From: Bdellovibrionales bacterium
GTDB lineage: Bacteria > Bdellovibrionota > UBA1018 > CAIMNF01
DNA length: 64,000 nucleotides
NCBI GenBank assembly: GCA_947502835.1
Contig: CANNBJ010000003.1
Span: forward strand, 434,001 to 498,000
Direction of reading: 5' to 3'
The notes below the pieces were generated by a model, which did no database searches, had not been told where the DNA came from, and was given only the letters and a program-made list of their open reading frames with translations. Positions 3,097-62,100 of the stretch are shown one piece after another. How positions within the stretch are numbered: position 1 is the first letter of the stretch; the number at the start of each line of letters is the position of its first letter. The translations under genes and the position numbers were made by a program.

Positions 3097-3113
3097 GACC
3101 CCTTGCGGGATCC

Positions 3114-3647: not shown

Positions 3648-3782
3648 GCGGCGAAGCCTAGCAAAAAAAGCCGACAAAATCAAGCAAGTAATATGGTTTC
3701 ATGGTGTGCCACCAATGTTTCAAGAGATTCCGTTGATCAAGCGTGTACCCGGGGTCTCTCTTGTGCCGGTGTCCTTGCAGGC

Positions 3783-4655
3783 TCACTCCCGGGACAGCCA
3801 GCCGCTCTTTCGGACCTTGAGAAAAATAAAGGCACTGACCGCAATCATGAGGCCCCAGACAGCGGGATAACCCCAGCGCTCCTCGAGTTCGGGCATGAAT
3901 CTGAAGTTCATCCCGTAGACCCCCACAATGAAGGTCAGGGGCAGGAAGAAGAGGGAAACCACGGTGAGAAAGCGCATCACTTCATTGGTGCGTTGGGAGG
4001 CCAAAGAAATCTGGAGTTCAAGCAGGTTCTGAACGTCCTCCATGAGTTCGTCTGCAATGCGGAACTGTGCATCCGAGGTTTCCTTCAGGTCCTGAACCCA
4101 ATGGGCATGGGACCCCGGGAGAAATCCTGCACACTCCCGGATCACGGGGATGGTGTTCAACATCAGGCGCTTCACGACCGAGAGTCTGGAGCGGTAGCGG
4201 TGCAACTCGAGGAGTTCCTCGCGTGAGGGCTTTCGCTCGAAGATTTTCCGCTCGATTGCTTCGATCGCAGATTCGGTCGAGTCAATCACGGGCTTGAAGC
4301 TTTCAATACAAAGTTTCAGGATCCGCAACAGCAATCGGTCCGGGTCCTGTCCCGGATCAAGGTCTTTCAGGAACCGGGCTTCCCCGCGGTGGACAGTGAG
4401 AAGCAATCCGTCTTTCCGGAAGAAAGCCATCTTGCGGGTCAGGGAAAGCAGGCTGTCGGCGGCTGAAGGTGCTTCCGTGTCTGCGTATCTGAGAATGAGG
4501 AAAAGTGTGTCGCCGAACTTTTCGATTTTCGGGTAGTGGGAGGGGTCCAGGCAATCCTGAACGGAAGAGGGGTGGAGCGAGTGCAACTCAGCGAGCGAGG
4601 CCAAGACCTCCGGGGTTCGTGCCTGAATGTCGTGCCAATTTTGGGTGAGAGTCAT
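3783..4655 (-). CDS. corA: CorA-family magnesium/divalent cation transporter
   Basis: CorA-type Mg2+ channel of the inner membrane. The C-terminus has two transmembrane helices with the signature YGMNF at the end of the first and a short Arg/Lys-rich tail; the preceding 200 residues form the cytoplasmic funnel with long charged helices. The ATG at 4655 is preferred because AGGA lies 9 bases upstream, giving 290 residues. An in-frame ATG at 4736 and another at 4772 would add 27 or 39 residues, but that extension is not CorA-like and would run into the divergent gene at 4751. With the chosen start there are 95 bases for divergent promoters. Confidence 0.88.
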   Translation of the reverse strand: MTLTQNWHDIQARTPEVLASLAELHSLHPSSVQDCLDPSHYPKIEKFGDTLFLILRYADTEAPSAADSLLSLTRKMAFFRKDGLLLTVHRGEARFLKDLDPGQDPDRLLLRILKLCIESFKPVIDSTESAIEAIERKIFERKPSREELLELHRYRSRLSVVKRLMLNTIPVIRECAGFLPGSHAHWVQDLKETSDAQFRIADELMEDVQNLLELQISLASQRTNEVMRFLTVVSLFFLPLTFIVGVYGMNFRFMPELEERWGYPAVWGLMIAVSAFIFLKVRKSGWLSRE

Positions 4656-4750
4656 GCGTTCGAGTCCTGCCTTGCCGGGGGGAAGCTTTTGCCTATGTAC
4701 GGAAAAATATCCCCGCTCTTTTTTGAAAGCAAGCATGAGATCCTGATCCC

Positions 4751-44373: not shown

Positions 44374-45300
44374 ATGCTTGGGAAAGCGGGATTGTTCTGG
44401 ATGTTGTTTTCTCTGACCACGGTGAGCTTCGGTGCCCATGGCTCCGATCCCTTCACTTCCTTCTTCGAGTTCTTGACGGCGCTCGAGGAGATGCCGGTGG
44501 AGCAGTTCGTAAGGAACGCCGATGAAACCCCCTCCGCGCGGATCGCGGAGTATCACAAAACCCTGTCGGACCTGGATCCTTCGAATTTCGATCGTTGGAA
44601 CCAAAAGCTCCGCCTCATCCACTCTCCGGGGCTCACAAGCGGCACCCACTATTGGGAACTCCACGCCAAGACCAGTACCGGAACCATCGGCTTTCATCCA
44701 CAGGCGAGAGAAACAGGGTTCGAGTCCATTGCGGATTTTTTTGAGTCCGTGAAGTCTGACGCTCCTGAGCGGTTTCAGGCCAGAGTCCGGCTTTCCTCCG
44801 AACAGGATTTGAATCGTTGGCTTGGAATCATGAGTGAGCGCAGTCCTGAGGCCTTTGAAACGGCCGTTCTCAAGGTGTCCGTCATTCGTTCGATCGGATT
44901 TCGGGAGAAGCCCGAGTATCGGATCCCGGTGGAACCGAGCGGACCGCCCCAGCCGATCGGGTTTGTCCAAGCAAATCAGGGAGTCGAGCAGGGTGCTCCC
45001 CTTCGAACGGTTGAGGAGTTGATCGCCGCGTATGAGTCATCCACCCCCGAAGAGTTCCTCAACCGCTTGCAAGCCCTTTCGCAGCTAAAGGCATCGCGTT
45101 TGCTGGGAGCGGTGAAAAAAAGAAATCCGGATTTGTATTTGGCCATGCTTAAAAAACTTCAAAGCCGGACACGGATCGGATACTCCACCTCAGTCGAACC
45201 CGAGGTGATCCCGCCAGAAGCGGATGCGGGTCCCCGTCAGCCGATCGGTTTCAAACAGGCGCCAAAGACCTGTTCGGATTTTCTGAAGCCCGAGCGATAA
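44374..45300 (+). CDS. Hypothetical exported protein with recurring IGF motifs
   Basis: A 308-residue protein with a signal peptide (cleavage near FGA-HG). No family recognised. The mature chain contains two similar helical stretches (EFLTALEEMPVEQFV and EELIAAYESSTPEEFL, each followed by a short helix) and repeated short motifs PQPIGFVQA, RQPIGFKQA, GTIGFHPQA. It ends in CSDFLKPER, close to CPESLKPER at the mature start of the NTase-2H protein coded at 57118. It is convergent with the PIN-PhoH gene, 8 bases away. A weak -10 (TAGAAC) ends 8 bases before the ATG, so it too may be leaderless. Confidence 0.65.
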   Translation: MLGKAGLFWMLFSLTTVSFGAHGSDPFTSFFEFLTALEEMPVEQFVRNADETPSARIAEYHKTLSDLDPSNFDRWNQKLRLIHSPGLTSGTHYWELHAKTSTGTIGFHPQARETGFESIADFFESVKSDAPERFQARVRLSSEQDLNRWLGIMSERSPEAFETAVLKVSVIRSIGFREKPEYRIPVEPSGPPQPIGFVQANQGVEQGAPLRTVEELIAAYESSTPEEFLNRLQALSQLKASRLLGAVKKRNPDLYLAMLKKLQSRTRIGYSTSVEPEVIPPEADAGPRQPIGFKQAPKTCSDFLKPER

Positions 45301-45308
45301 CTCCGGGA

Positions 45309-46832
45309 TCAGTGCTTCTCGATTTCCTTGAAGACCAGGTCAAAGAGGTCCGTGGTCGGCGAGCGAAGCCCTTCGATCAGAAGAGTGTGGCCTGTGAGGG
45401 CGCTCTTTTTGAACGCCTCGCTGTTCACCACCTTGAAGAAAGGACTCGCATTCTGGGAAGTGACCTGCTTCAGATCGATTTGCCCGAGATCCCCCATGAG
45501 GACGATCTTCGAGCCTTCGCCGATCCGTGTGAGCAAGGTCTTCAACTGGATGTGCGTCAGGTTCTGGGCTTCATCGATGATGATGAGCGCATTCGAAATG
45601 CTGCGTCCGCGCGAGTATCCGAGTTTCAGAGGCTCCATCCCGAAGTTTCTCAGGATGTCATTGGGCTTGCTTCCCATTCGGGTCCGAAGTGCCGTGATTT
45701 GGCTTGATCCAAAAATCGGCTCGAGGTTGTCGACAAAAGAGTCATGCCAAGGCCCTGTTTTTTCGTCAAAATCCCCTTTCAGGAATCCAAGCTCATCCTC
45801 GCCGCCAGTGTGCTGATAGGGTTTGGCGTAGTAGATCTTTTCGTACACATTGCGATCAAGTTGTTGCAGGGCCGCCGCCATGGTGATGAGGGTCTTTCCG
45901 GAACCGGGCTTTCCGAACAGGGTGACGGCAGTGACCGTGCGGTCCATCAGAAGCTCAAGCGCGAGACGTTGCTCCAGGTTTTTGGGCCGGATGTTTTTGA
46001 TGGTCTCGTTTTGTTGGATCTTGAGTCCATGCAGGCTTTGGTCCGAGCTCTTGTAGCGCAGGATAATCGGCCCGACGCCCTCCTCGGCTTCCCGAACCAG
46101 AACAAACTGGTTGTCGTAGAAGTCGGAAGGATCCTCGACCCTGTACTTCCAGGAGCGCTCATCGGTGGAGGTGAAGAGTTGCTGCAACTCCTCGTCCGGA
46201 AGAATGTGTTTTTTGAAGCCTGTGTAAGTGAGTTCCTCATCCTTCGGAATGCGGACCTTGAGCCCCGGGCCCACAGGCGTGCCGACCGGAATGTCGTTCA
46301 AACGGGCGAGTACACCAAAGGCGGAGTCATGGGTTACGAGAATGATTTTTTCCTTCGGATTTGTGTGCTGGTATTGCAAGACCGCCGCGAGGATGCGGTT
46401 GTCCGGATTCGATCTTGAATCGAGATCAAGCTGGCGAAGGGCCGCGGGGGACTTGGAGCCGATCGGACCCACGGTCAGGAGTTCCAGAGTGGACCCGTTC
46501 TCAAGCGAGATTCTCCGGCTCAGGGAGCCATCCCCGGTGCTTGCCTTGAAGAGGCGGAAGAATTCCCGGGCGGCCCAGCCGAGTCTTGAATCCGTTTTCT
46601 TGGAGTCCAGCTCACGAAGTGTTTGCTCGGCGATCGCAACAGTTTGGCCGTTTCCATAATCGAGGAACGCGGAGGGCTTCTCGAGGAGCACGTTGGTGTC
46701 GAGGACAAAGGTCGTGAATGCGGAGGGGGACGTGGAGGAATCAGGAAGCAAAGATTCCGGACACGACATCGCCATCGCAATCCTCGGGTTCAAGACGAAA
46801 ATACCGATCACCAGTACCTGCAGGAGTTTCAT
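45309..46832 (-). CDS. PIN-PhoH ATPase with an N-terminal signal peptide
   Basis: A 507-residue protein with the domain order of YlaK/PhoH2: a PIN ribonuclease domain (41-185; acidic residues Asp45, Asp144, Asp169) and a C-terminal PhoH ATPase/helicase domain with Walker A GKPGSGKT (307-314) and Walker B IIIDEAQN (Asp420, Glu421). Known relatives are cytoplasmic and unwind and cleave RNA. Here about 40 extra residues precede the PIN domain, forming a signal peptide (MKLLQVLVIGIF..., cleavage AMA-MS). The start at 46832 has the strong ribosome binding site GAGGAAGG 7 bases upstream. A weaker internal ATG (codon 20) would remove the signal. Either an exported RNA enzyme or a misleading N-terminus. 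Confidence 0.85.
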   Translation of the reverse strand: MKLLQVLVIGIFVLNPRIAMAMSCPESLLPDSSTSPSAFTTFVLDTNVLLEKPSAFLDYGNGQTVAIAEQTLRELDSKKTDSRLGWAAREFFRLFKASTGDGSLSRRISLENGSTLELLTVGPIGSKSPAALRQLDLDSRSNPDNRILAAVLQYQHTNPKEKIILVTHDSAFGVLARLNDIPVGTPVGPGLKVRIPKDEELTYTGFKKHILPDEELQQLFTSTDERSWKYRVEDPSDFYDNQFVLVREAEEGVGPIILRYKSSDQSLHGLKIQQNETIKNIRPKNLEQRLALELLMDRTVTAVTLFGKPGSGKTLITMAAALQQLDRNVYEKIYYAKPYQHTGGEDELGFLKGDFDEKTGPWHDSFVDNLEPIFGSSQITALRTRMGSKPNDILRNFGMEPLKLGYSRGRSISNALIIIDEAQNLTHIQLKTLLTRIGEGSKIVLMGDLGQIDLKQVTSQNASPFFKVVNSEAFKKSALTGHTLLIEGLRSPTTDLFDLVFKEIEKH

Positions 46833-47020: not shown

Positions 47021-48781
47021 TCAGGGATTCACATGGATCTGCGTCCATTCGCCTTGAGAGCTAGCCTCAAACGGAGGACGGATCGAATGTGTTTCTTCGG
47101 CGGGAGTTTTGAAAGTGAGGCTTTGCACACAACTGAGAACTGTTTCCTTCGCACTTGCGGCAATCATCCGGGCGATGAGAGGGCCATAGGTGCGCGGGTT
47201 TGTTGCCACCAGTCCCGCTGCCATCGACAGGTCGTAGAGAAATGCGGAGACCCGTGCCGCAGGAAGGGAGGACTCCTGTTCATAGCGGATTGCCTGGGCG
47301 TGTTTCCAAACCGCAAACGGGGTTGCGATGATGGCGGAGTAGAACAGAAAGTGGGGGAGTGCGTTCGAGGGGGAGTTCAAGGTGAGAAGGTCGGCATTCT
47401 TCAGGTTGTTCGGAATCTGGTACCAAAGGGTTCGTTCCAGCTGCGTGCCCTTGAGTTTCACTCCCGCCACATCGACAGTGTAGCGGGCATGTCCCGTTGC
47501 TTCGCGTACATCGCTGAGCGAGTTGAATCCATCCTTCAGCAGGTTGCTCGCGATTGAATTCTGCATGATCTCGAGGTTCATCGACCGGCCGGTGGGGGTG
47601 AACCAGGAAACGCTTTCGAGGCCGTTTCGAAGTGCTTTGTTCCAGGCTCCGAAACTGTAGGAGGTCACGAGCAGCCGGAGTGCCATCTTGTAGGTTCGTT
47701 CCCAAAAATTGGTGGGATCGACTGGTGAAAAGGCATTCCGGAAGGTGGAGCCGTAGATGCCGAGAACAAGGGCGTATCCAATCGTCAATTGGGTGAAGGT
47801 GTGATCGACATGACCGCGGCAGATCAGGTAGGTGAGAAGTTCCGCGCTTCCCACTTCAAGGATGGTTTTGATTCCCGCTTGGACGAATGCCTGCCGGTCC
47901 GGCTTCACATAAACCGCATTCCACCAATTCGTGAGCCGATTGCGAGCACCCTCGGGACGATCGAAGAACTTCACGCGGACTGAGCCGCTTGAGGGATCGC
48001 CCTCCACCACGGGTTTGTGGATCACCCAAAACACCTGAGGGCGGCCGCGACCCCGGTTTGCCCACGCACGAACCCGGGCGATATAGCGTTTCCACTCGGG
48101 ACTCTCCGTTTCGAGCTCGCTCTCAAGAAAGAAGTGCGATGATCCGGTGGCCTCGTCCACCATCCGGGGATAGAGCTTGCCTCCCACGAGTTTGGGTTCT
48201 GCAAAGCCGACTCCGGGGATCACCACACGGAACTCGTCAATCCAATTGCCGCCCTTGTTCACCCGGTCGAGAAACAAGACCTCTCCGATCCTCCGGATTC
48301 CGGATTCGCGGTTCCACTCGGGAATGGACATGAAGGTCTTGGCGTTCAGTTTTTTCAGGCGCCACGCGCGATCACCCGACTTCTCGGGGAGGAGGAGTGC
48401 TGCTTCGATCTCCTGTACCCTTTTCTTTCCGAGTTCCGGGATCTGTTGGTCGACTCTCTCCTTCAGGGCAACTTCCAAGCGAAGAATGTCTTCATACACG
48501 CGTGCCTGGTCCCGAGCCATGGCGTCGCCGAATCTTCGCGCTTCGGCATCTGACACCGGTCGATCCTCATCCGGGAGAACGAGGTCCCCCGGCTGCGACT
48601 CGGGAATCTGAAAGTCATCAATGAAGGGGACGTCTTCTCCGGGCGGAGGCAAGTCCTGCGCACGGGTGGTGGCGGAGAAGGAAAAAAGGAGAACGACGTG
48701 CAGGAGAAATCCTGCAAGCAAGGCGGAAAAAAAACTGCGGCCCCGTGCATGGGGTGCACGGGAGGTACTCAGGTTCTTCAT
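47021..48781 (-). CDS. Signal-bearing multi-pass membrane protein
   Basis: A 586-residue protein of no known family. It starts with a long signal sequence (MKNLSTSRAPHARGRS..., cleavage TRA-QD), an acidic/Pro-rich segment, a charged region of about 200 residues, then about five hydrophobic segments between 290 and 540. Two signal-bearing membrane proteins nearby (49137 and 55934 genes) have a similar layout: signal, soluble part, then a membrane part of four or five helices. The ATG at 48781 is chosen because codon 1 is then followed by a regular signal peptide; the frame is open 24 codons further upstream. No Shine-Dalgarno; a -10 lies 13 bases upstream. Confidence 0.65.
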   Translation of the reverse strand: MKNLSTSRAPHARGRSFFSALLAGFLLHVVLLFSFSATTRAQDLPPPGEDVPFIDDFQIPESQPGDLVLPDEDRPVSDAEARRFGDAMARDQARVYEDILRLEVALKERVDQQIPELGKKRVQEIEAALLLPEKSGDRAWRLKKLNAKTFMSIPEWNRESGIRRIGEVLFLDRVNKGGNWIDEFRVVIPGVGFAEPKLVGGKLYPRMVDEATGSSHFFLESELETESPEWKRYIARVRAWANRGRGRPQVFWVIHKPVVEGDPSSGSVRVKFFDRPEGARNRLTNWWNAVYVKPDRQAFVQAGIKTILEVGSAELLTYLICRGHVDHTFTQLTIGYALVLGIYGSTFRNAFSPVDPTNFWERTYKMALRLLVTSYSFGAWNKALRNGLESVSWFTPTGRSMNLEIMQNSIASNLLKDGFNSLSDVREATGHARYTVDVAGVKLKGTQLERTLWYQIPNNLKNADLLTLNSPSNALPHFLFYSAIIATPFAVWKHAQAIRYEQESSLPAARVSAFLYDLSMAAGLVATNPRTYGPLIARMIAASAKETVLSCVQSLTFKTPAEETHSIRPPFEASSQGEWTQIHVNP

Positions 48782-48794
48782 TCGGAGCCGGGGG

Positions 48795-48824
48795 AAAATA
48801 CCAAAGCAGAGTTTTTTAGTCGAA
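48795..48824 (-). promoter_or_regulatory. Possible promoter of the 48781 gene
   Basis: On the minus strand TTCGAC, 18-base spacer, TATTTT, with the -10 ending 13 bases before the ATG. The leader would be only about six bases and carries no ribosome binding site. Confidence 0.4.
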
Positions 48825-49136
48825 AGAAAAAGTAAGGGAAAACAAGGCAACAAAACGAAAAAAATTGAACCGGCCTCCGGTGAAGGCAGACTGAGGGGGC
48901 ATCAGTGGATTTTCTGCGGGGTGTTTAGAAAAAATATTGCATCCTGCTGTGGCTCTGTTAAAAACCCCGAGCCGATTTAGAGCAATTGCGGGCAGGACCA
49001 GCTAAACGCTATCCGGAGCTTCCCCCTGAAAGGGACGGGAGATCTCTCCGGCTCCTTTTTGTTTTCCACCCGCTTTTTCCTTCCTCGGTGCAGACAATGC
49101 TGTCAACAGACAACGCGGTCAATGGAGGCGTGGCGA
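48825..49136 (+). promoter_or_regulatory. Divergent intergenic region with a structured leader before the 49137 gene
   Basis: No ORF is supported in this stretch. It holds GGCTC/GAGCC (48951-48955 with 48969-48973) and a compact set of stems at 49011-49060: GGAGC pairs with GCTCC, enclosing TCCC/GGGA and GGAG-ATCT-CTCC, followed by TTTTTGTTTT. Read on the plus strand this looks like an intrinsic terminator or attenuator 77 bases before the start of the 49137 gene. No riboswitch class was recognised. Confidence 0.4.
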
Positions 49137-50366
49137 ATGAAGAGAGTCGACGAAACAACTGTCAAATCATTGGGTTCTGAAGTGCAATGCATGCTGCGCG
49201 GGTGGTTTCTTCCCGCGGCGGTCTGCATCGGGTTCCTCGCAGGGAGCGTCGTCGCTCGGGCGGAGGTTCTGACGCTCGGATATGCTCTGGAAACCAAGAA
49301 TCTTCGCGTGGAGATCCAAGTCGGTGAAGTCGATTCCGAATCGCAGTACGAAGAGTCCATTTCCGGCCTGACGGAAGTGTTGCAGGGCGATCAGGCAGGA
49401 AATCCGGAGGCGCCGATCGAGCTTGCCTGGATCAATGGTCCGGATTCCCTTCGCGGTCCTTCGGGTGTTGAGGAGGATCGGTCGAGGCCTGCGAGATTCG
49501 TTCGGAGGTTGAAGGAAAAGCTTGCACTCAGGGGAGTTCACGCCTCCCGCGAGGGCGGAATTGAGTTTGACCCGGGGAGAGATCCGAAGCCCGAGGTCAG
49601 GTCCCGCCTGACAGATGTTTATCTGGATCACTCGAAAATCACCTGGACCGTGGTTCGTGTCCTGACCAATACGGGCGTGCGCGTGGGCACCTTGATGTAT
49701 GCGGGGTTGAATTTTTATCAGGCACTCACCGTTGGAATCGGCGTGTTCACTGCGTGTACGGCAGTTGCCTGGAATTCCAAGCATTTGCTTCATTTCGAGG
49801 AGAATTTCAGGCTGTATCACGTTTTTTCAAAGCAACGATTCCCGGCGCTCCGGAAGTTGCTCGAGCAGCCCTCGGTCGAGCGACGGATCCGCAAACCCCA
49901 TTATTATCTCAATTGGGGTTTGCTCGAGACCCTGTTCGGAGCCGTCATTCTTTTTGGAGAGAACACGGCCCGCTCCCTCTGGGGTCTCGACCTGGAAGTT
50001 CCCGGACTCTGGCCGTTCCTGCTCAGTGCCGGGGTTTCCACGGCGAGCCAGGGTGTTGCCGATCTTGCGGTAGCCAAATACGAGCAATTGTCGAAGGCCT
50101 CCGGAATTCCAAAAAAGCTGCTCGACGCGAATCTCTACAAGCGCCTCGCCTTCAATTCGGTCGTGAGTGTGGCGGGATTCACCATGATCAACACCGCTTT
50201 TTTGCCCGTTCAGGTGACAGGGTGGGTGTTTCTCGGGGCGCTTTCCGCCTACGGGTTCTCCATGTCGAAGTATCTTGACCGGAAGACCGTTCGCGGAGCC
50301 GATCCGTGTATCTCCTCCCTCTCGGAGAAGGGTGCGGGCAGTGGTGTGGACCCGGACGTGAAATGA
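49137..50366 (+). CDS. Signal-bearing multi-pass membrane protein
   Basis: A 409-residue protein of no known family. GGAGG at 49124-49128 sits 8 bases before the ATG at 49137, which supports this start over upstream in-frame codons. A signal sequence (hydrophobic about 20-40, cleavage ARA-EV) is followed by about 140 polar residues, then about six hydrophobic segments from 185 to 385. It lies between a divergent membrane protein of similar layout and the exported AAA+/peptidase gene, 181 bases upstream of the latter on the same strand. Confidence 0.65.
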   Translation: MKRVDETTVKSLGSEVQCMLRGWFLPAAVCIGFLAGSVVARAEVLTLGYALETKNLRVEIQVGEVDSESQYEESISGLTEVLQGDQAGNPEAPIELAWINGPDSLRGPSGVEEDRSRPARFVRRLKEKLALRGVHASREGGIEFDPGRDPKPEVRSRLTDVYLDHSKITWTVVRVLTNTGVRVGTLMYAGLNFYQALTVGIGVFTACTAVAWNSKHLLHFEENFRLYHVFSKQRFPALRKLLEQPSVERRIRKPHYYLNWGLLETLFGAVILFGENTARSLWGLDLEVPGLWPFLLSAGVSTASQGVADLAVAKYEQLSKASGIPKKLLDANLYKRLAFNSVVSVAGFTMINTAFLPVQVTGWVFLGALSAYGFSMSKYLDRKTVRGADPCISSLSEKGAGSGVDPDVK

Positions 50367-50473: not shown

Positions 50474-50547
50474 CGCGCGCATCATGAGAGGATCTGATGC
50501 GACCTGATCAGGGAGCATGATTCCTCCGGACGGGAAGGGGAGTTCAG

Positions 50548-53500
50548 TTGAAGACGACAACAGGTGGCAGGAGTCTCGGGATTCGCGTTTTGGTGTTGGT
50601 TTCATTTTTGGTCATTCCGCCGGCGTTTTCTGGCCCGGGGGATCCGTTTGATGCCTTGAAGGAAACCATCCGGTATTTTGAAAAGTCCTCCGCCGGAGCG
50701 GACCCCGCCGCAGACTTGATCCGGATCCGCTCGCTCAAGGGGCAGACCTTCGAGGAAGTGTATCACCTGTGCAAAAAGCAAATCGTTCTCGAATCCCACG
50801 CACCGAAATTGAATGTGGACCGTCTGATTGCATGGGTTGAGGTGCTTTCCAGCATGGCCGGGTCCGCCGATGTTCGCTTGGTCGGATGGCTCAAGAAGGA
50901 AGTCCTCCGGGCCTATTCTTCGCATCCGGACATCCGCGAGCTGAGCGGGTTTCTTGATCAGACCATCGATCTTCTGAGGGGCGCTCCCGCCCAAAAGGAG
51001 CTTCCGAGAATCCGGGACGTCGAAAAATCAACGCATTCCGCGGTCGTGGCGGTCCGGAATTCCGGAATCCTCGAGGACCGCTTGATCCGGTTTGTGGAGG
51101 CGATGAACTCCGAAAAGTTTTCGGGTCTCAATTCCGCGACAGCCCAGGTCCTGACCTCCGACATTCGCGCACGCCAGGAGCGCCGCCGATACCTGCCCAT
51201 TGTTGCCAGGGACGCCGAGATTGATGCTGCCATAGATGTGCTCTTGCGGATGAAGGGGAAGGCACCTGTGATTCTCGGGGAAACCGGGGTCGGGAAGAGC
51301 TCTGTTGCGGAGGGGATCGCCGCAAAATTGCTTTCCGGGGACGTGCCCGAAGGGCTGCACGCGGAGAAGTTGAAGAACTCGGTGGTCATGGTGACGAATC
51401 CTGCGAAGATCGCATCGCTCGTGGATGATCCGAGTCCTCGCAGTGTTGCGATGGCGCTCAATTGGTATTTCAACCAGGCGAAGACCATTGGCAAGCTGAC
51501 CCAAACCCATGTGATTGTCGTGATCGACCAGGCCCACCAGCTTGTGGGTGCGCAAGTGGATGCGCTGAAGGCCTTGCTCGATGACGGATCCCACTCCATG
51601 ATTCTGGTCGGTGGGGCAAAGCAGGCGGCATTCACGCTGATGGCCGATGAGCAGTTTTTGAGCCGGATCGAACCCATCATGATTCAGGAACTCGACGAGG
51701 CGGCCACCTTCGACCTGATCAAGAGGGCTGCGCTTCCCGAGATCGAGAGAAACTATCACCTCGTGATTCCCGATGAAGTGGTCACGGCCGCAATCGAGCT
51801 TTCCGCCGAATTGCAGCCGGACCTGAAGCGTCCTGATGCACCCATCAAGCTATTGCAGGATGCGGCGATTTTCATCAGCAGGACATCAAACGGCGAGGCG
51901 GGTTCCGTCACCTTGTCGGCGCTGTACAGCCTGGCAGCCCAGAAGGCTCGGCTTCCGGTGGTTTCCCAGGATCGCGCGCGGTTCATCTCCGTGATGGATG
52001 AAGTGAAGGGCAAGATCAAGGCGGATGTGCGCGGCCAGGATCCTGTGGTGGACAAGATTGTGAACCTGTTTGCGGCAACCATGACCGCGAAGGGACGGAA
52101 AACGCGTGCGGCGGTGATTGTTGGGACGACGGGAACGGGAAAGTCCCTCATTCCCTCAAGACTTACGCACTATTTCTACGGAACCCAGACGCGCATGCTC
52201 AAGATCGACGGAAATCAGCTCAAGACTGATGACAGCGGGTTCTATCTCTTCGGTCCGAAGTCCGGATATATCGGAAGCGACAAAAACAAGGGACTCCTGG
52301 CAAACCATTTCGACGGGCCCGGGAAAGGTTCAAGCATTGTGCTGGTGGATGAACTCGACAAGATGCACCCCCAACAGGTGGAACGTCTCATGGAAATCAT
52401 CGATACCGGGAAGTTCATCGCGGGCGATGGCAAGACCCGTTCAACGGGCAGGGTTCTCTGGCTTTTCACTTCGAACAAGGGGGCGACCAAGTTTTTTCCG
52501 CCCGAGTTTGTGAAATCCGCCACCGTTCCTGAGGTTCAAAAGCGACTGCTTTCCATTTCAGAGGCGGAGGTCCGCGAGGCCTTTCTTCAGCAGGAATCGT
52601 TTGCGAAATCGGATCAGGTCCTGAAGCCAGAGGTTTTGGCCCGAATGGACGAGATGGTGCTCGTGGCCCCGATCCTGAAGGAAACCGCACTCGAAATCGC
52701 AAGGATCAAGATCAAGGACGAAATCGAGGGCTATCGCCAGCAGGGACTCGGAACCCTCGAAGTGGATGACGGATTTGCTAATGCCATCGTGAATGAGAGT
52801 TATGATCCCGTGTTCGGCGTGAGGGAGCTTGAGAGGAATGTCAGGACAAAGATCGGTGAAATTTACGATGCGCTTGTCAAGCAAGCGGGGCCTTCCGGCT
52901 CGGTCAGGATCGAAACGCTGATGCCGGAACCCGGGGCCAGCATCATCCGCTTCAAGGCTGGCAACGAACGCGGGGACTCGGTGATGGTGAATGGACCGAA
53001 GCTCGCGTATGAGAATCCGCTGTTTGATCCGGTCGAGAAGGAAAATCTCCGGAACCTCGAGAGTGCGTTGAACGCGAAAGTGTATGGACAGGGTTTCTAT
53101 GCCAAGAAGCTTGCGGAAAGCATCCAAAAGAGTGTTGTGGATGCGGCTTCCAACAAGCCGGTCTCCGTGTATGCACTCGGCATGACAGGAAACGGGAAGA
53201 CTGAAATGGCCCGCGCTCTCGTGATGGCGAGGTTCGGGTCGCTGGAATCCCTGTGCAAGCTCGAAATGGGTCAGGTCGGAAGTGTCAAGGACCTCTCCAA
53301 CATCTTTCAGTCCTCGGTCGGTTATGTGGGGTCGGATCAGCCGGGCCAGTTTGAACGGTTTCTGCAAACCCACAAAAAAGGAGTGATCCTCTTTGATGAG
53401 ATGGGCAATGCCGGGGGCAATGACAAGAATGCAAAAGAGGAGATCGGAAAGTATCTCTATTCGATTCTTGACGACGGGATCTGGGTCAGTCCCGTGACCA

Positions 53501-54798
53501 AGAAGACGTACTCGCTCCGTGATTACGTGTTCATTTTCACAGGAAACGAGGCCGAGAAGATTTTTGCGGGAAACTCCCAGGATGATCTTTTGCGTGCGAT
53601 TTGGAAGGATCACAGCTCCGAGGAAAAGGCACGGGAGCTTCTTCGCCAAAGCGGGCTCAGTCCGGCGTTTGTCGGCAGGATCGGAAGTGTGGTGCTGACG
53701 GAGCCGCCGGTGAAGGAAACCAAAGAAAATATCGTAAGAAAACTCCTCGGCGAGTGGATTTCCCGGGTGGAGTCCAAGCAACCGGTCAGGATCATTCATG
53801 ACGCAAGCTTCGTCGAGATGGTGAGCAAGCTTACCTATTCCGCAAGTGAGGGAGCGCGCTCGGTGATCAATTTCGTGAATACCACCCTTGGTTCCGCTGC
53901 ATCAAAAGGCGTATTCGAGGTGGATTTCTCAAAGGCATCGGGTGCGAATCGGGCGGAGGTGAGACTTTCGCTTGAAGTGAAGATCCCAAGCCAGCCTTTT
54001 TACAAGGTGGTTCCGGATGAGACTCTGGCCAAGCTCATCGTGACGGTGGTGCAGGAGGGCGTTGAAATCGCGAAGATCGAGTCGGACTTCACCAAATCGG
54101 CACGATTCATCAAGCAGATCCGGATGGTGGATGCCTATGCGACGGCGTTTCACGAGGCGGGGCATGCGATCTTGAATGATCCTTCAACCTCGGGAAGGGT
54201 GCTTCAGCACTTGACCATCATCCCGGCCGACCATTACCTAGGATACGCGCGATACGAGGACCTTCCCGGATTCAAGACAAACTACACACTCACAGATCTG
54301 CGAGCGCGTCTTGCCACCCTGGTCGCAGGCTCCGAGGCCGAGCTTTTGATCGGTCGGGAGATGAATTCGGGACAGGCGGGTGACTTGAAAGAAGAGAGAA
54401 GGCTTCTCACCCGTGCCGCAACCACGTGGGGGCTTGTTCCGGAGCTCATGGGGGCGAAGGTGGATGACAATGGTGTTGCGAATTTCACCGGGAGCCAGGT
54501 TCAGGTGTTCAACGAGTTTGCCGAACGTGAGCTCGAAATTGCCAGGGAAACTGCGAGGAAATTCATTCTTGAGAATTGGGTCCTCGAGTACAAGGTTGCG
54601 GAGGAATTGATGAATCGCGGGGAAATCTCGGGGGTGAGGTTTCGCGAGATCCGCGACGCAGTTGCAAAGATGAGTTCCGCAGAGAAAAAACAGTTCGCGA
54701 AAGTGAACTCCCCGCAGAAGGTGAAACTCATGCTTTCGGATCTCGACAAGGAAAGCTGCGCTGATCTCATGAAACGCGCAGCCAGGGGATCCGACTGA
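50548..54798 (+). CDS. Exported triple-AAA+ (ClpB-like) protein fused to an FtsH-like M41 peptidase domain
   Basis: A 1416-residue protein starting at TTG with GGGGAG 8 bases upstream. Signal peptide (hydrophobic 12-27, cleavage AFS-GP). AAA-1, Hsp100 D1-like: Walker A GETGVGKS (244-251), but Walker B is VIDQAH, with Gln328 for the catalytic Glu. AAA-2 and AAA-3 are D2-like: Walker A GTTGTGKS (526-533) and GMTGNGKT (878-885), Walker B VDELDK (Asp601, Glu602) and FDEMGN (Asp950, Glu951), pore loops GYIG (573-576) and GYVG (925-928). The C-terminus is M41-like: HEAGH (1202-1206) and SGQAGD with Asp1279 as third zinc ligand. FtsH has one AAA module and two transmembrane helices; this fusion is not a known family to me. 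Unfolding plus proteolysis outside the cytoplasm would need external ATP. Confidence 0.85.
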   Translation: MKTTTGGRSLGIRVLVLVSFLVIPPAFSGPGDPFDALKETIRYFEKSSAGADPAADLIRIRSLKGQTFEEVYHLCKKQIVLESHAPKLNVDRLIAWVEVLSSMAGSADVRLVGWLKKEVLRAYSSHPDIRELSGFLDQTIDLLRGAPAQKELPRIRDVEKSTHSAVVAVRNSGILEDRLIRFVEAMNSEKFSGLNSATAQVLTSDIRARQERRRYLPIVARDAEIDAAIDVLLRMKGKAPVILGETGVGKSSVAEGIAAKLLSGDVPEGLHAEKLKNSVVMVTNPAKIASLVDDPSPRSVAMALNWYFNQAKTIGKLTQTHVIVVIDQAHQLVGAQVDALKALLDDGSHSMILVGGAKQAAFTLMADEQFLSRIEPIMIQELDEAATFDLIKRAALPEIERNYHLVIPDEVVTAAIELSAELQPDLKRPDAPIKLLQDAAIFISRTSNGEAGSVTLSALYSLAAQKARLPVVSQDRARFISVMDEVKGKIKADVRGQDPVVDKIVNLFAATMTAKGRKTRAAVIVGTTGTGKSLIPSRLTHYFYGTQTRMLKIDGNQLKTDDSGFYLFGPKSGYIGSDKNKGLLANHFDGPGKGSSIVLVDELDKMHPQQVERLMEIIDTGKFIAGDGKTRSTGRVLWLFTSNKGATKFFPPEFVKSATVPEVQKRLLSISEAEVREAFLQQESFAKSDQVLKPEVLARMDEMVLVAPILKETALEIARIKIKDEIEGYRQQGLGTLEVDDGFANAIVNESYDPVFGVRELERNVRTKIGEIYDALVKQAGPSGSVRIETLMPEPGASIIRFKAGNERGDSVMVNGPKLAYENPLFDPVEKENLRNLESALNAKVYGQGFYAKKLAESIQKSVVDAASNKPVSVYALGMTGNGKTEMARALVMARFGSLESLCKLEMGQVGSVKDLSNIFQSSVGYVGSDQPGQFERFLQTHKKGVILFDEMGNAGGNDKNAKEEIGKYLYSILDDGIWVSPVTKKTYSLRDYVFIFTGNEAEKIFAGNSQDDLLRAIWKDHSSEEKARELLRQSGLSPAFVGRIGSVVLTEPPVKETKENIVRKLLGEWISRVESKQPVRIIHDASFVEMVSKLTYSASEGARSVINFVNTTLGSAASKGVFEVDFSKASGANRAEVRLSLEVKIPSQPFYKVVPDETLAKLIVTVVQEGVEIAKIESDFTKSARFIKQIRMVDAYATAFHEAGHAILNDPSTSGRVLQHLTIIPADHYLGYARYEDLPGFKTNYTLTDLRARLATLVAGSEAELLIGREMNSGQAGDLKEERRLLTRAATTWGLVPELMGAKVDDNGVANFTGSQVQVFNEFAERELEIARETARKFILENWVLEYKVAEELMNRGEISGVRFREIRDAVAKMSSAEKKQFAKVNSPQKVKLMLSDLDKESCADLMKRAARGSD

Positions 54799-54915: not shown

Positions 54916-55767
54916 ATGATTAAGGCACTGATTGTTGGGTTCGTGTTCTTGGGATCGTTCACCGCGCATGCACAGGTGCCTGCGCTTCAAAAAGTGATTG
55001 CTTTGGCAAGCACGCAAGGAAAAACAAGCACTGAGGCTGTGACCCGGAGTCTTTTGACCCAGTTGGAGAGCTCTTCTCAGAGCGGTTTGGCAAGTGTGGT
55101 TAAGAACGACCCGGTCTATACCTTCAACAATGGTAACTTGAATGAAGAGACTCTTCGGTACCTCGGAAGCGAAGCCCAGAGTGCGCTTCTTCAAATTGGA
55201 AAAAAGACCACCTTCAAGGCGGTGTCCGCACTTCCCGAGTTCGAAATCGCGCTCAGCTCTGTGAGCTCACTTGAACATGCCGCCGATAACATTCCACTCA
55301 GCAAAAACGGGCAACTTAAGTCTTCGATCTCTTCGGATGTGGTCATTGAAAGCGATATCCGCTCTTTGGGCCTTTCTGAGCCAGTCGCTACGGATCTTGC
55401 AAACGAGCTCAAGGCCTTCAAAAAGGAAACAGGGCTCTTCTACACCAATCGCGGGATGTGCAAGGGTCTGGATGACGAAGCCGCAACGAATTTCGCAGCG
55501 TTCGTTCGCGATGCCCGTGAGAATCTCAAGCGCACCCGAGCCAAGTGTCCGGGACAACTGTATGGATCGATCGCAGAAGTGTGGATTCACTTCCAAAAGC
55601 GGATGGGCCGTGAGGGTGATGCTCTTTGGCGCGCTGTGGAAAAGAACCAAACTTGCTACACCGCAGGTAAACTTCGTCCGGGAGTTCTCAGTGCTGTGAA
55701 CCAGATCTCCCAGAAAAACGGCGGCCAAGTTCCCGCAGAGAACGAGCCAAGCGGCTGTCCGCTCTGA
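54916..55767 (+). CDS. Hypothetical secreted protein
   Basis: A 283-residue exported protein (signal MIKALIVGFVFLGSFTAHA, cleavage AHA-QV). No family recognised. The mature part is predicted largely helical and has four cysteines, all in the last 110 residues (MCKG, KCPG, TCY, and GCPL at the extreme C-terminus). It is monocistronic between two terminators with its own promoter, which suggests strong independent expression. Confidence 0.7.
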   Translation: MIKALIVGFVFLGSFTAHAQVPALQKVIALASTQGKTSTEAVTRSLLTQLESSSQSGLASVVKNDPVYTFNNGNLNEETLRYLGSEAQSALLQIGKKTTFKAVSALPEFEIALSSVSSLEHAADNIPLSKNGQLKSSISSDVVIESDIRSLGLSEPVATDLANELKAFKKETGLFYTNRGMCKGLDDEAATNFAAFVRDARENLKRTRAKCPGQLYGSIAEVWIHFQKRMGREGDALWRAVEKNQTCYTAGKLRPGVLSAVNQISQKNGGQVPAENEPSGCPL

Positions 55768-55867: not shown

Positions 55868-55926
55868 GTCAGGTTTCGGTCAAGGCGGAGTGTTTGATTT
55901 ACATGGTCGACTTTGATCTGTAAAAT
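55868..55926 (+). promoter_or_regulatory. Direct-repeat element and leaderless promoter
   Basis: GTCAGGTTTCGGTCA at 55868-55882, then TTTACA (55898-55903), a 17-base spacer and TAAAAT (55921-55926). The -10 ends 7 bases before the GTG at 55934. The 15-base repeat recurs upstream of the 59178 and 63650 genes. Confidence 0.6.
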
Positions 55927-55933
55927 ACGGTTC

Positions 55934-57151
55934 GTGCTTCATCCCGCATTTTGTCTGGCCAAAAGAGGGTTCGCTGCTCTTGTGTTGATCGCCTTGATCA
56001 ATCTGTTCTGTTCCATTCCCGCATTTGCAAATATTCCAGAGAGTGACTTTACCAATGTGCAGAGTCTTTCCGACGCCGATCGCGTGGTCGATGCGCTCAT
56101 GAGCAGGACTGGTGGGCAAGGCGAGATTCTTCTGTATCAGACCGGCGACCGGCTTCCGGATGAGCTTCAGTGGATCATCAAGAGGCTCTCCCAGAAGCGG
56201 CTTCAGGTGACTGTGGTACGGGTGAACGAGGAGACGCTTCAGGCGGAGTGGAAGGCTCTTGAGAAGGCCCCCCTTGAGTATCAGGAGCTGATCACCTTCC
56301 GGCCCGGCAAGGAGTTCACGTTCCGCTCGCTCCTTGATTCAGGACGAACGCTCATCAGCAAACTCTTTGGGATTCAGAGGATCCGAGACCTCAGTCTTTG
56401 GATTCCGGTTCCCCGCAAACCCGACATAGTGAAGCTCGACCGGGTGAAGGGCATGTATGCGGGAGCAACCGCGAGTGCCTCACTGGGGCTTTCGTATGTG
56501 AGCTCCTATCTGAAGAACGGGGGAACCCTGGATGCCTCGCTCCTGACTCCCATGCTGAGTCTTGGAGCGTGGGTGTACTTCAATGTGAATTCCTTTCGCT
56601 CCCTTGGTCAGGTGATGTCACAAGGGAAATCCATTCAGCCCACGGCAGAAGGTTGGAGAGTTCGAACGAACTCTCCTTTTTTTTGGGCAACGAGCTACCT
56701 CCGGTCCATGTTGACCAATGCCATTGTTCAAGTTTCAGCAACCGGGCTTGCGGGTGCCCTCACTTCGGAGGCAATCCAGACCAATCTCACGAATTCCGTT
56801 TGGAGTGTGGTCAGTCGCTCGGAGATCGACAAGTACATCGCATCGAAAACCCCATCCACCCTCGACGAGGCGGGACATGTAGTGATTCAGGCCGGTCAGT
56901 GGTCCGAGCGCAAGGCCGCCAATGTCAATTTTTGGTGGAATTTTTCCCACGGGATGGTGAAGAATCTTCACTTGTTGAACTTCGATCCCCAGTTCATGAC
57001 GATCGTATTCGGGGGACTCGCGGCGATCAATCTCGGGTTTTTTCTGAAGGACCAGATTCCGGAATGGGTTGAACGGGTATCACGATTTGGATTTGCGATG
57101 AAGGAGAGGGTGGCGTCATGCAATGCGCTGTTAGTCGTCGAGCGAAATTAA
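55934..57151 (+). CDS. Signal-bearing multi-pass membrane protein
   Basis: A 405-residue protein of no known family. A signal sequence (hydrophobic about 12-30, cleavage AFA-NI) is followed by about 130 polar residues and then hydrophobic segments at about 165-185, 195-215, 245-275 and 355-375. The frame is open from a TTG at 55913, but that codon would lie upstream of the -10 hexamer; GTG at 55934, 7 bases after the -10, is preferred. The next gene overlaps by 34 bases in another frame, so the two form an operon. Confidence 0.65.
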   Translation: MLHPAFCLAKRGFAALVLIALINLFCSIPAFANIPESDFTNVQSLSDADRVVDALMSRTGGQGEILLYQTGDRLPDELQWIIKRLSQKRLQVTVVRVNEETLQAEWKALEKAPLEYQELITFRPGKEFTFRSLLDSGRTLISKLFGIQRIRDLSLWIPVPRKPDIVKLDRVKGMYAGATASASLGLSYVSSYLKNGGTLDASLLTPMLSLGAWVYFNVNSFRSLGQVMSQGKSIQPTAEGWRVRTNSPFFWATSYLRSMLTNAIVQVSATGLAGALTSEAIQTNLTNSVWSVVSRSEIDKYIASKTPSTLDEAGHVVIQAGQWSERKAANVNFWWNFSHGMVKNLHLLNFDPQFMTIVFGGLAAINLGFFLKDQIPEWVERVSRFGFAMKERVASCNALLVVERN

Positions 57152-59076
57152 TCCTGTCGCTTTTTGTTAGTGGTGCGATTTCGGTCACTGCGCCGGCATA
57201 CGCATCCTTGGGGTCATGTCCCGAATCCCTGAAGCCCGAGCGAAGGCTCGACACCTTTTCGGAATATCCGGTGTACAAGGGCGAAAAGGTCCAGATCATG
57301 GAGTTGAATCCGGAAGACCCCACGCAAGCGGTTTGGGCCGGAGGTGTGGCGACCGCGATGAGACATGTGGGTCCCGAAGTTGCAGCGGCAAAGCCCGTGA
57401 TTGATCGGGTGGTCGGGCCCTCGACCGAGACTTTCGACATTGCAGTGGGCCTGAATGGTTCAGCTGCCCGCTATGCGCTTTTTGGATCTGCAAATGACCT
57501 CGACATCCTGGCTCAACTGGTTCTCAAGGTGAAGAGTGGTTCGACAAACGAGCTGTTCGATGCCCATAGCAAACCGGTGCAAATGGTCACCCGGTATCTT
57601 CAAGAGCATGTGGAACAGGTGCTCAAGGAGAATCCGACCTATCGATTCATCGAGCTGAAGGCCGGCGAATACATGGATCCTGAAACAGGTGAGAAGGCCG
57701 GAATCAAATGGTGGCTTGAGGATTTCAGACGCGGGTACAAGGTGGTTCGTGAGCCAACCGGTCCGAGGCGCGTGACCCTTGCCCAAGTCATCGCAGAGCC
57801 TGCGCGGATCAAGATTGATTGGGCCGTGCCTTCCCCCCTTGATTCCTTGAATGCCTATGATTACACCGAAGTGACTACAATTTACATTCTCGGAATGAAG
57901 GTCGGGAACAACCAGCCAAGACTCAGGATCTCAGATGTTCCGGGCGCGAATGAGTCCCTCGTGGTGAAAGCCACGGGAATCAATCTGAGTAAAGAGGACC
58001 TTCGAAAGTCGATTGAGCTCTCGGTGGGTGAGAATCCAGTGACTCTGGAACATGTTCATCAGGGACTCATCAAGACAATCGAAAAGTATTCGGATCTTGA
58101 CCGTCTCAAGGTGTTGAAGCGTGTGTTTGCGCTTCTAAGTTTTTGGGAGAACCCACTGGATTTCAAGCTGATCACCGGAATTCCTGTCAGCTCCGAAGAA
58201 GTGATGCGGCAGGTGCAGGACATTCTCGCGCTCCCGAGAGTCCGGGAATATTCCAGAATCCGCTCAAGGGCGGATGTGCGGATCATCGCACGCGAGCACG
58301 GAGTGGAGCTTGGTTCCCATGATGAGGATTGGATTCGCGAAGTGAAGAAGGATTTCCATCTTCAGGCAAATACTCTTGAGGCGATTGAGGACGAGGTGAG
58401 GGGATTGCTCGAACAGGAGCTGACGGTTGCGTTCCAGAGATATCCCCACATTCCCGAATACATCGAGTTTGTGCGTGCCCGTGCGCCCTATGTTGTGGGC
58501 CATGAGCTATCCCGAAACGGTGTGTTTCTTGCGCTCAAGCCCGATGAACGCTTTCGCACCATTCTTTCAAAACGGATCGAGGGATGGAAGAAGAAGTATC
58601 CTGCGCTCGATTTTGTGGAACCTTCGGATGCCCATATGACGATTCACTTCAGCGGGCGGATGTCGGATCCGGCTCTCGATGCCTGGATCGCGGAGGCAAA
58701 AAAGAATTCAAGCGGGATTCCAACCGCAAGCCAAGGCGGATTGCACATCATGGGCAAACAAAACCAAGTGATTGCCATGAAGTTCCCCTCCTCGCCGGAA
58801 TTTTCGGCACTTGCGAAATCCATGCGCGCGTTCTCGACAAAGGTCGGAGGCACGCCGGAAAAAACCTACCTTGAGTTCACTCCCCACATCACCATTGCAA
58901 GCATCAAAGGGAAGGACTCCCCTGCGGTGCAGGCCCAGGTCAGGCAATTCCTGAGTGAATCCACGGGAACGCTTTCAGACGCATCATTTGAGGGGTTTGA
59001 GATCTGGACGAGGGGGGCCGGGGGCTCTGGGGCGGCGGAGCCCGCGCCGAAGGGGAAGTATACCAAGCTCCGTTAG
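57118..59076 (+). CDS. Exported nucleotidyltransferase-like/2H phosphoesterase fusion
   Basis: A 652-residue protein with a signal peptide; either cleavage at AYA-SL or a lipobox LGSC with Cys34. Residues 110-131 contain GS followed after 11 residues by DLD (Gly114, Ser115, Asp127, Asp129), the pattern of Pol-beta-type nucleotidyltransferases. The C-terminal 160 residues carry two HxT motifs, HMT (506-508) and HIT (590-592), with the spacing of 2H phosphoesterases, which act on 2',3'-cyclic or 2'-5' phosphodiesters in RNA or nucleotides. The middle part is helical and unassigned. AGGAG-type purines precede the ATG. The nucleotidyltransferase call rests on one motif; the 2H call is firmer. Confidence 0.72.
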   Translation: MQCAVSRRAKLILSLFVSGAISVTAPAYASLGSCPESLKPERRLDTFSEYPVYKGEKVQIMELNPEDPTQAVWAGGVATAMRHVGPEVAAAKPVIDRVVGPSTETFDIAVGLNGSAARYALFGSANDLDILAQLVLKVKSGSTNELFDAHSKPVQMVTRYLQEHVEQVLKENPTYRFIELKAGEYMDPETGEKAGIKWWLEDFRRGYKVVREPTGPRRVTLAQVIAEPARIKIDWAVPSPLDSLNAYDYTEVTTIYILGMKVGNNQPRLRISDVPGANESLVVKATGINLSKEDLRKSIELSVGENPVTLEHVHQGLIKTIEKYSDLDRLKVLKRVFALLSFWENPLDFKLITGIPVSSEEVMRQVQDILALPRVREYSRIRSRADVRIIAREHGVELGSHDEDWIREVKKDFHLQANTLEAIEDEVRGLLEQELTVAFQRYPHIPEYIEFVRARAPYVVGHELSRNGVFLALKPDERFRTILSKRIEGWKKKYPALDFVEPSDAHMTIHFSGRMSDPALDAWIAEAKKNSSGIPTASQGGLHIMGKQNQVIAMKFPSSPEFSALAKSMRAFSTKVGGTPEKTYLEFTPHITIASIKGKDSPAVQAQVRQFLSESTGTLSDASFEGFEIWTRGAGGSGAAEPAPKGKYTKLR

Positions 59077-59167
59077 TCAGAGTTCGGTCAAAACGGAGTC
59101 AGAGGTTTGTCATTTTCCTCTTTGATTTCAGGTAATTATTCAAAAATTGCCATTTTGACGCTATGCT
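59076..59167 (+). promoter_or_regulatory. Direct-repeat element and promoter of the 59178 gene
   Basis: GTCAGAGTTCGGTCA at 59076-59090, then 48 bases to TTCAAA (59139-59144), a 17-base spacer and TATGCT (59162-59167). The -10 ends 10 bases before the ATG at 59178. The same 48-base distance is found before the paralogue at 63650. Confidence 0.6.
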
Positions 59168-59177
59168 TCATTGCGTT

Positions 59178-62100
59178 ATGAAAAGGCTTTGGTCCACTCG
59201 TGTTCGTTTGGTCATGTGTTTTTTCCTGCTTCTTGGGGCTGTTGCCTATGCCACCCGGGAAAACGATCCACTCAAGCGCACCTATCAGGAAACCTTCGAT
59301 GTGGTGTTCGGAGTGGAGAACAAGAGTGCCATTTTTCCAGGGCCGGATGAGAGAACCGGTGGTTTGTTTTCCACAAAGGATTCAGACGAGGTTGTCCGCA
59401 CGGTGCCGCTTCGTAATCATCCCGCCTACGAGCAGGCCTTGGGGAGGGTGCGATCCTTAAAGCAGATGATCGAGTCCGAGGCCGTGAAAAGAGGCAATCT
59501 TGCGGACGATCATCGTAAGTTCGAGAACCTTCTTGAAGTGATCGTGAAGTATCTCGATTTTCAGAGAATTTTCCATCTCAACTATCTTGCAAACCTTCAT
59601 GAAAAATCCGCTGCGCCGGGAGCCTTCCGTGTTGATGAACTGAATCTGAATTTGAGTTCCCGCTTGGGATTGAAACTGGTGCTTCGGAAGGATCTGATGG
59701 CGAAGTACCATGTCCGCCATACTGCGGAAGCTGACAGGGCGGAGGTGTTTCTTCCGCCCTACGAACGGGTTCAGATGGAGGCGACTGCTCTGGCCCGGGT
59801 CAAAACAAAGTTGGAATACCAGAAATTCATCCATTTCACCCACCTCAGGGATTCCCTCGTGAATCGCTGGGCCTTGAAACGGATCTCTCCCTCCGGGATC
59901 GAGGAGGGAATCTCGCTTCCGCCCCAAGGGTATGATTCTTTTGCCGGTGAAAAAGCGGATCGTTCCGGGAACTTCGCTTTTTCAAGGGACCTTGGCGTGG
60001 AGGATCGCTATCAGGCGCGGATCAAGGATGTCCTCCCGCAACTGCAAGCTGAGCTCAAGGACAAGCCTTTGGGTTCAGAGGAGGAGTATCGGGAGCTCAT
60101 TCAGGACTATTACGGATGCTTTTCCCAGCTCTCTACCTTTCCATTGAATCCTGACCTCCTGATTGCGAACCTGTTCGACGTCGAGGAGCGGACCCTCGAG
60201 GGCTCTTCCCAGCAAGTGATTCTGGAAGGGAGCTTTCCCGAGGATGATCTCTCTCCCGCAGCCATTGCAAGGCGAACCAGCCACAATGCGTTTCTTGTGC
60301 GCAGAAGCGGGGTTTTGAAGGCGCTTCTTTATCAGGTGAAAATGGATCTGGTCGTCTGGGAGGGGGTTGTGAATCTCGACAACGAGGGGATGATTTCGGA
60401 GCAGGCATTCTTGGATTCTGAGAAACTCTTGAAAATTCCCAAGGCGGATTTGGCGCGAGCGGAAAAGGTGGTCGATGGATTCCTTGCACGCGTGGAGCAG
60501 CCCTGGCGCTCGAAAATGGCATCCCGGATCGAAGGATTCTACCGAAGTGGGAATCTGAAGCCGGAGGCTCTCTCCGCAAAAGAGCGGAAAGAGGAGTTCT
60601 TCAAGCAAACCCTCAAGGTCGCGGGCGAGGCGATGTTCCATTTGGGGCAAGCCGATCGGTATGACCAATTGAAGAAAAAGTTCGATCATTTGCCATCCAA
60701 AGTCGTGGAGTCACTGGATCACCAAAGAGTGCCGCTTGAAGTGGAGTGCGCCGCGCAGGGAACGGGACTCGTCGGTCCCGTGCTTGCGAGTTCCTGTGTC
60801 GCCAGGGTGAAGTCTGACCTTTATTTGTCCGGGTTGGACGCAACTGCGGATGCAGGGATGTCGTGGGCGATTCCCTGGAACGCGGACCAAATCCGATCCC
60901 TTCTTGCCGCAAAGATGCGTTTTCTTGAGGAGCATGATCCCAAAAAGTGGGAGCAGGTGAAAAATGTGGTTCATGATCCGGTGCTCGACTATTTTTTCAA
61001 GGAGCTCACCACCAGCCAACAGACGGTGATCATGGAGCGAAAGCTTGAGATTCAGGTGAAGAAACTCGAGATCTCGGAAAAGCTTGGAAAGTATCTTGCG
61101 CAGAATCCGGGGACTGTCATGGAGGAAACCAGCCTGTATCGGGAGATGGCAAAGCTTCAGGAAAAGATCGATTCCGTGGGACTTGATCCGCGGGAGTCGA
61201 CGCTGAACGAGGAAATGTATGAGGAGGCGGCACACAAGGTGCTTTCAAGAAGATTCGTGGAACTCGATACGCCGCCACCACCTCCTCCGCCTGAGGTCAC
61301 CATCCAGGAGAAGAGTAGCGTCGAATTCCAAGGGAAAAGGACGATCCTCGCGCCGGACAAATCGCAGGTGACAAAGGGGGGGATTTCTTATGAATTGGTA
61401 AGGGAATCGGAGTATCATCACCGGGAACGCACCAAGCTCGAGATCGGGCGTGTGTTCAGCATGCTTGGATTCGGCTTGGATTTTCTTTCAGAGTATTTTC
61501 AAACGCCTGAGCTTTTCAAGAATCAGATGAAACTTGCGGCTGATTTCAGGTTCGAGTCCTGGTACCCGAAGCCCGACCAGAAGACGGCACAGGCGCTTGG
61601 GGGCCTTCTTGGCACGGGGCCGCGTGAAAAGAGAGGAAGCGCCTTGAGTGAGATCGCCAGGTCTGCCCACTCGCAGAAGCTGCTCTCGGAAGTCGTGATT
61701 GAGGGAATCTATGTCCGGGCGCCCTTTCTTCGAGTCCGTGAGGGAGATGACCTGAAGGCTCCGACAGGACTTGAGCGTCTTTTCAAAGCCTATTCGACGG
61801 TGACAGGTTGGAATCGTTCCCTTGCAAGGGCGACTTTCGATTCTCTCGTGGGCACGGCCCTTCGGAATGATGCAGGCAAAGTGGAGGATGCTCTTCAAGC
61901 GAGGCCAGACCTTCCGGGAGAAGACCCCCAGTTCAAAAGGATTTTCAGGGCCCAGGCGACCCAGCGTGGTCTCTTTCATGCGACCCTTTGGGGAAACAGG
62001 CAGGAGAGGGTTGGCCGCTGGGAGGAGGACCTCAAGCTGGAAACCCGTACCACCGAGGAAGTTTGGAATGATCGGTTCCATTTCATCTCGTCGGTTTTGA

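Follow-up and report, generated by a model that had tools for sequence, protein, structure and literature searches.

A family of predicted exported proteins joining HSP100-type AAA+ modules to an M41 peptidase in Bdellovibrionota

To our knowledge, the ATP-dependent proteases of bacteria all work in or face the cytoplasm. In FtsH, an M41 peptidase featuring an HEXXH motif and a third Asp ligand closes a chain with a single AAA+ motor, and two transmembrane (TM) segments go with a cytoplasmic AAA domain. The HSP100 proteins ClpA, ClpC and ClpB are made up of D1 and D2 modules, with GYxG pore loops in D2 and a ClpB_D2-small domain. An HSP100 at work outside the cytoplasm of its producer is found in Plasmodium, where HSP101, a component of PTEX, is active in the vacuole outside the parasite (PMC7355975). 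Here we describe a gene residing in a stretch of 64,000 nucleotides (contig CANNBJ010000003.1, positions 434,001 to 498,000; the whole stretch is called the window, and coordinates refer to it) from an uncultured bacterium attributed to the phylum Bdellovibrionota. The open reading frame (ORF) 50548-54798 (+) encodes a single chain of 1416 residues, in which a signal peptide, a helical N-terminal domain, one D1-like and two D2-like (ClpB/ClpC-type) AAA+ modules and an M41 zinc peptidase follow one another.

As in FtsH, the AAA+ chain terminates in an M41 peptidase that bears HEXXH and the third Asp, but the ClpB/ClpC-type motors are three instead of one, the AAA module preceding M41 being of the D2/ClpC type. 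The protein has one signal peptide in place of two TM segments, a body predicted to lie outside the cytoplasm, an extra beta-rich linker and a Cys tail. D1 and D2 modules, the GYxG pore loops of D2 and ClpB_D2-small are shared with ClpA, ClpC and ClpB, from which the protein differs by an extra D2, by a peptidase covalently fused instead of a partnership with ClpP, by its predicted export and by the lack of a Clp_N domain, not found in the protein by Pfam. The likeness to HSP101 is a functional analogy only, HSP101 being a eukaryotic translocon motor without a peptidase.

Matches over the curated Pfam cut-offs were obtained for AAA_2 (two stretches), AAA (three), ClpB_D2-small and Peptidase_M41 (2.2e-13). 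In NCBIfam alignments, residues 196-771 correspond to ClpA D1-D2, residues 831-1124 to a second D2 (ClpV) and residues 1195-1343 to FtsH. Equivalog cut-offs were not reached for ClpA (220.8 vs. 993), ClpB (220.1 vs. 1232) or ClpV (203.1 vs. 885), and FtsH_fam matched residues 1195-1343 only, at 44.5 bits against a cut-off of 600. As all these scores fall far below the cut-offs, the protein belongs to none of the named families, and is a composite of two known kinds. An earlier note on this DNA, made by reading the letters, had listed one D1-like and two D2-like modules joined to M41 and knew of no such fusion; domain matches and motifs bear out the layout, and no named family accounts for it. 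The sequence thus points to a new AAA+ protease architecture, with a new predicted location, built from known kinds of domains.

All components lie on the + strand. The N-terminal helical-looking domain (residues 29-210; 50632..51177) has no Pfam match. The D1-like module (about residues 211-480; 51178..51987) features an intact Walker A (GETGVGKS) and a Walker B with DQ (VVIDQAH), the catalytic Glu being replaced by Gln in the window protein and in G011, and by Lys in G002. This change is classically associated with ATP binding in the absence of hydrolysis, and D1 here probably binds ATP without hydrolyzing it. The first D2-like module, D2a, with ClpB_D2-small (about residues 487-775; 52006..52872), carries GTTGTGKS, the pore loop GYIG and VLVDE; the second, D2b (about residues 829-1125; 53032..53922), carries GMTGNGKT, the pore loop GYVG, ILFDE, TGN and an Arg finger. 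GYxG loops are present in the two D2 modules only, and the canonical KYRG loop was not seen by eye in D1, so that the pore loops attributed by the earlier note to the AAA+ modules hold for both D2 but not for D1. The Walker and pore motifs of ClpA, ClpB and ClpV are accordingly found, with the exception of the D1 Walker B and pore loop. The M41 domain (54103..54747) houses HEAGH at 54151-54165 and the third ligand Asp at 54382-54384, an FtsH-type site, as had been read.

Among 40 family members, the Walker A, the Walker B Asp-Glu, the sensor-1 Asn and the Arg finger of D2b, the HExxH and the zinc-binding Asp are kept wherever alignable. HExxH served to select family members, and the P-loop to select rows of alignment A6; the other sites were unselected. 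Catalytic conservation of the last motor and of the peptidase is well supported by these alignments. D2a is mostly intact across the family, the residue before the Walker B Glu being Asp or Asn, and D1 is optional, present in about half of the members and replaced in the others by a different N-terminal part. The AlphaFold model of D2b, linker and M41 (predicted local distance difference test, pLDDT, 91; predicted template modelling score, pTM, 0.83) matches the D2 of ClpC and ClpB, and a profile search matches solved FtsH structures at 4.6e-23.

The fusion was monitored by a D2b+M41 profile search, and about 40 of 369 Bdellovibrionota genomes, distributed over 14 families, contain it; the genome search suggested in the earlier note has thus recovered the D2-M41 fusion many times. 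An 84%-identical full-length copy is found in a named Bdellovibrionales metagenome-assembled genome, and the phylum attribution rests on this record. An assembly error joining separate genes, which the earlier note had envisaged, or a chimera, is excluded by recurrence in about 40 independent genomes. Genomes sampled from other phyla, 321 in three sets with some overlap (20 mixed, 10, and a set of 291 belonging to a single phylum), yielded no fusion. A mobile or viral origin was rejected: plasmids gave AAA matches only, as did IMG/VR viral contigs among the matches listed, where no fusion was present. The genome of the window also encodes two ordinary M41/FtsH proteins, one ClpA and one ClpB. 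The fusion is therefore an addition and not a replacement, and the two separate M41/FtsH genes led us to discard the idea of an ordinary FtsH. Two diverged AAA-M41 genes reside in the single locus L104 (2-2644 and 5989-9960). In L124 (7468-12099) an exported triple-AAA relative lacks the HExxH of the M41 site, and has a C-terminal Cys motif.

The start codon is a TTG, preceded at a distance of 5 nucleotides by the Shine-Dalgarno-like sequence AAGGGGAG (50535..50542, +). The chain opens with the signal peptide MKTTTGGRSLGIRVLVLVSFLVIPPAFS^GPG (50548..50631, +), which is the single TM-like segment. Signal peptides were called throughout by a rule-based n/h/c test with a type I cleavage site, not by SignalP, and family members were compared with controls. 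Among the 30 members complete at the 5' end, the test called 27 positive, while the same rule retrieved 2 of 55 ClpA, ClpB, PhoH and FtsH controls, one of which is a true FtsH anchor. In two of the remaining members (L090, L101) a signal peptide is visible by eye, and in the third (L103) a signal-peptide ORF lies 13 base pairs upstream, probably separated by a frameshift. An n/h/c signal peptide of the kind expected for Sec export is hence kept in relatives. Nearly all members have one N-terminal hydrophobic segment only, and no second TM segment before the motors. A cleavable-type signal peptide with no second membrane span would place the body of the protein outside the cytoplasm, and export of the triple AAA+/M41 protein, proposed by the earlier note, is well supported as a prediction.

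The same note had considered that translation might start after the signal segment. The first in-frame ATG is codon 103, and GTG and TTG codons occur between the TTG start and this codon. The 84%-identical relative (L034) keeps the TTG start, the Shine-Dalgarno-like AAGGGGAG before it and the hydrophobic core of the signal peptide. In codons 29-97, substitutions between the two closest copies are mostly at third positions, which indicates that the stretch before codon 103 is translated. A later start is accordingly unlikely.

Nearly all family members end with a lone-Cys motif, CADLM in the window protein (residues 1404-1408; 54757..54771, +). In 39 of 40 members one of the last 30 positions is a Cys, vs. 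3.9% expected per member from Cys content, and in 28 members it is the sole Cys after residue 45. The usual form is C-x-x-hydrophobic-hydrophobic (CADLL, CSKIL, CEALF, CKKLF, CASLL), the strict form being present in 22 of 40. Large exported proteins adjoin the protease gene in L090, L094, L098, L103, L112, L118 and L128. Exported partners that are encoded next to the protease on the same strand and exceed 800 residues number seven, and each of them bears the Cys motif, placed at the C-terminus or following the signal peptide. The L090 protease terminates in NRCADLLSGKL, and the product of the next gene has NRCADLLSGRD after its signal peptide. In L103 the protease and a nucleotidyltransferase-like partner are fused in one chain, and the Cys is missing at the junction, which suggests that the motif may serve to join protease and partner. 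When the motif was defined loosely and all exported neighbours within 8 kilobases (kb) were included, enrichment was modest (18/119 vs. 5/98); the strong signal is confined to the family itself and to the large adjacent partners. That the motif generally marks exported proteins was rejected for this genome, 400 kb of contig C1 showing no enrichment. Neither an exported AAA+/M41 protein nor this Cys motif came up in a search of the accessible literature.

The partners in L090, L094, L098, L103 and L118 have in common a domain resembling CCA-adding enzymes, with an invariant GG...DxD. The predicted model of this domain (pLDDT 78) folds like class II CCA-adding enzymes (Foldseek 1.7e-5; VIA Z 13.0), whereas a sequence search of the PDB with the partner profile gave nothing convincing, so that the likeness is shown by fold search only. 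The domain shares fold and GG...DxD with class II CCA-adding enzymes and poly(A) polymerases, but its identity to them is only about 13-20%, it is exported, and it lies within long chains, several of which also have FGE-like domains; FGE-sulfatase-like domains are found at the end of the partners in L090, L094, L103 and L112. In L128 four genes lie in tandem; their products have motifs of the GG...DxD type (weak profile match), and each shows a Cys-LL motif at its C-terminus. Between the two protease copies of L104 lies an exported CP_ATPgrasp protein (2701-5895, -) with the Cys motif LCEEILKT. In the window, an exported PIN-PhoH ATPase/RNase (45309..46832, -) carries SCPESLLPD after its signal peptide, scores 4.9e-39 and 3.8e-17 in Pfam, and has intact-looking Walker A and B; a second copy in the same genome lacks the signal peptide, as is usual. 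These exported enzymes of nucleoside triphosphate (NTP) type, PIN-PhoH, CCA-like and ATP-grasp, make an ATP-containing place of action likelier than it would be from the protease alone.

The following mechanism may be envisaged. The Sec route would send an ATP-dependent unfoldase-protease out of the cell. There it would assemble into a hexamer, the ring being stabilized by a hydrolysis-dead D1 still binding ATP, while the two D2 rings would pull the substrate by their GYxG loops and the M41 ring or chamber would cut it. The terminal Cys motif could link or sort the protease with co-exported partners bearing the same motif. The toolkit would draw ATP from a foreign cytosol, most likely that of a prey or host cell which the bacterium has entered or opened. 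There is a real chance that an exported toolkit tagged by Cys motifs, so far undescribed, has the protease at its core. To the reading as a whole, in which an HSP100-FtsH hybrid outside the cytoplasm belongs to such a toolkit, powered by prey or host cytosolic ATP, we assign a probability of roughly 0.55. A broader proposal is tentative, namely that Bdellovibrionota export Cys-tagged ATP/NTP-dependent machines (HSP100-M41, PIN-PhoH, tRNA-nucleotidyltransferase-like, ATP-grasp) which dismantle or reprogram the cytosol of another cell with its own ATP. Prey or host could plausibly supply the ATP, since in Bdellovibrio a Sec signal peptide suffices to bring a reporter into the supernatant (PMC12622784), release of prey contents into the periplasm of the prey is described (PMC4289276), and HSP101 offers a precedent (PMC7355975).

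The earlier note had placed the action in a host or prey cell, or in an ATP-supplied compartment; the neighbouring exported ATP/NTP-type enzymes favour this indirectly. Several points weigh against action in a foreign cytosol. The location is a prediction from sequence, and the hint of predation comes for this organism from the phylum only, by way of the 84%-identical record. No recognizable NTT ATP/ADP translocase was found in the genome. After passing through Sec, a chain with several AAA modules would still need to fold and to bind ATP. The family is missing from g89, a genus densely covered by 24 genomes, and the neighbourhood, partner genes excepted, is not conserved between genera.

Since the sequence places the body of the protein in the periplasm, and relatives of the HSP100 and FtsH kinds act in quality control, the protein could serve envelope quality control in the producer's own periplasm, the signal peptide perhaps being kept as an anchor and ATP arriving by an unspecified route or by leakage. 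This is unlikely: the gene is patchy (about 40 of 369 genomes), unlike a housekeeping factor, RNA- and nucleotide-type enzymes are found among its neighbours, and the bacterial periplasm is not known to us to contain ATP. The patchy distribution, the variable N-terminal parts and the variable large exported partners adjoining or fused to the protease would fit a secreted, toxin-like conflict system, in which the AAA-M41 protein unfolds, activates or degrades proteins and the partners (nucleotidyltransferase, FGE-like, ATP-grasp) are the effectors; yet no known toxin or immunity domain was found and PADLOC matches concern the generic AAA part only, and we regard this too as improbable. Least credible by far is a cytoplasmic AAA+ protease with a non-functional signal peptide. 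ATP is located in the cytoplasm and the signal peptide is a predicted one, but even highly diverged relatives retain signal peptides, which are almost absent from the ClpA, ClpB and PhoH controls, and the partners are exported as well.

That a family spread across the phylum keeps both its signal peptides and its catalytic residues implies that proteins may be unfolded and degraded at the expense of ATP outside the producer's cytoplasm. If export into a foreign cytosol holds true, this would be a bacterial system for ATP-driven extracellular proteolysis and RNA processing that possesses a terminal tag of its own for sorting or linking. The ways in which bacterial predators or parasites process foreign cytosol, and a role of the Cys motif in sorting or joining exported machines, thereby become testable.

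More exported proteins flank the protease gene in the window. Upstream are a 308-residue exported-looking protein (44374..45300, +), ending with TCSDFLKPER, without Pfam match and missed by the rule-based test, a 610-residue protein (47021..48853, -; C-terminal SCVQSL) and a 435-residue protein (49059..50366, +; C-terminal PCISSL). Downstream, a 283-residue protein (54916..55767, +) starts 121 base pairs after the protease, and is followed by a 412-residue protein (55913..57151, +; C-terminal SCNALLVVERN) and by an exported LigT/2H phosphoesterase (57118..59076, +) with SCPESLKPER after the signal peptide. A nucleotidyltransferase fold in the latter, hinted at by GSANDLDI, was discarded, as comparison with a profile of two sequences gave no support. 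Three tandem exported proteins of about 1450 residues come after the protease locus (window 59163-63500; L159 651-5006 and 5082-9440), the first without a Pfam match. Farther away on the minus strand are a giant protein of 3871 residues (27772-39387) with Invasin_D3/Ig-like and RCC1 repeats, and a protein of 1665 residues (22629-27626) with Invasin_D3 and glycine-rich domains.

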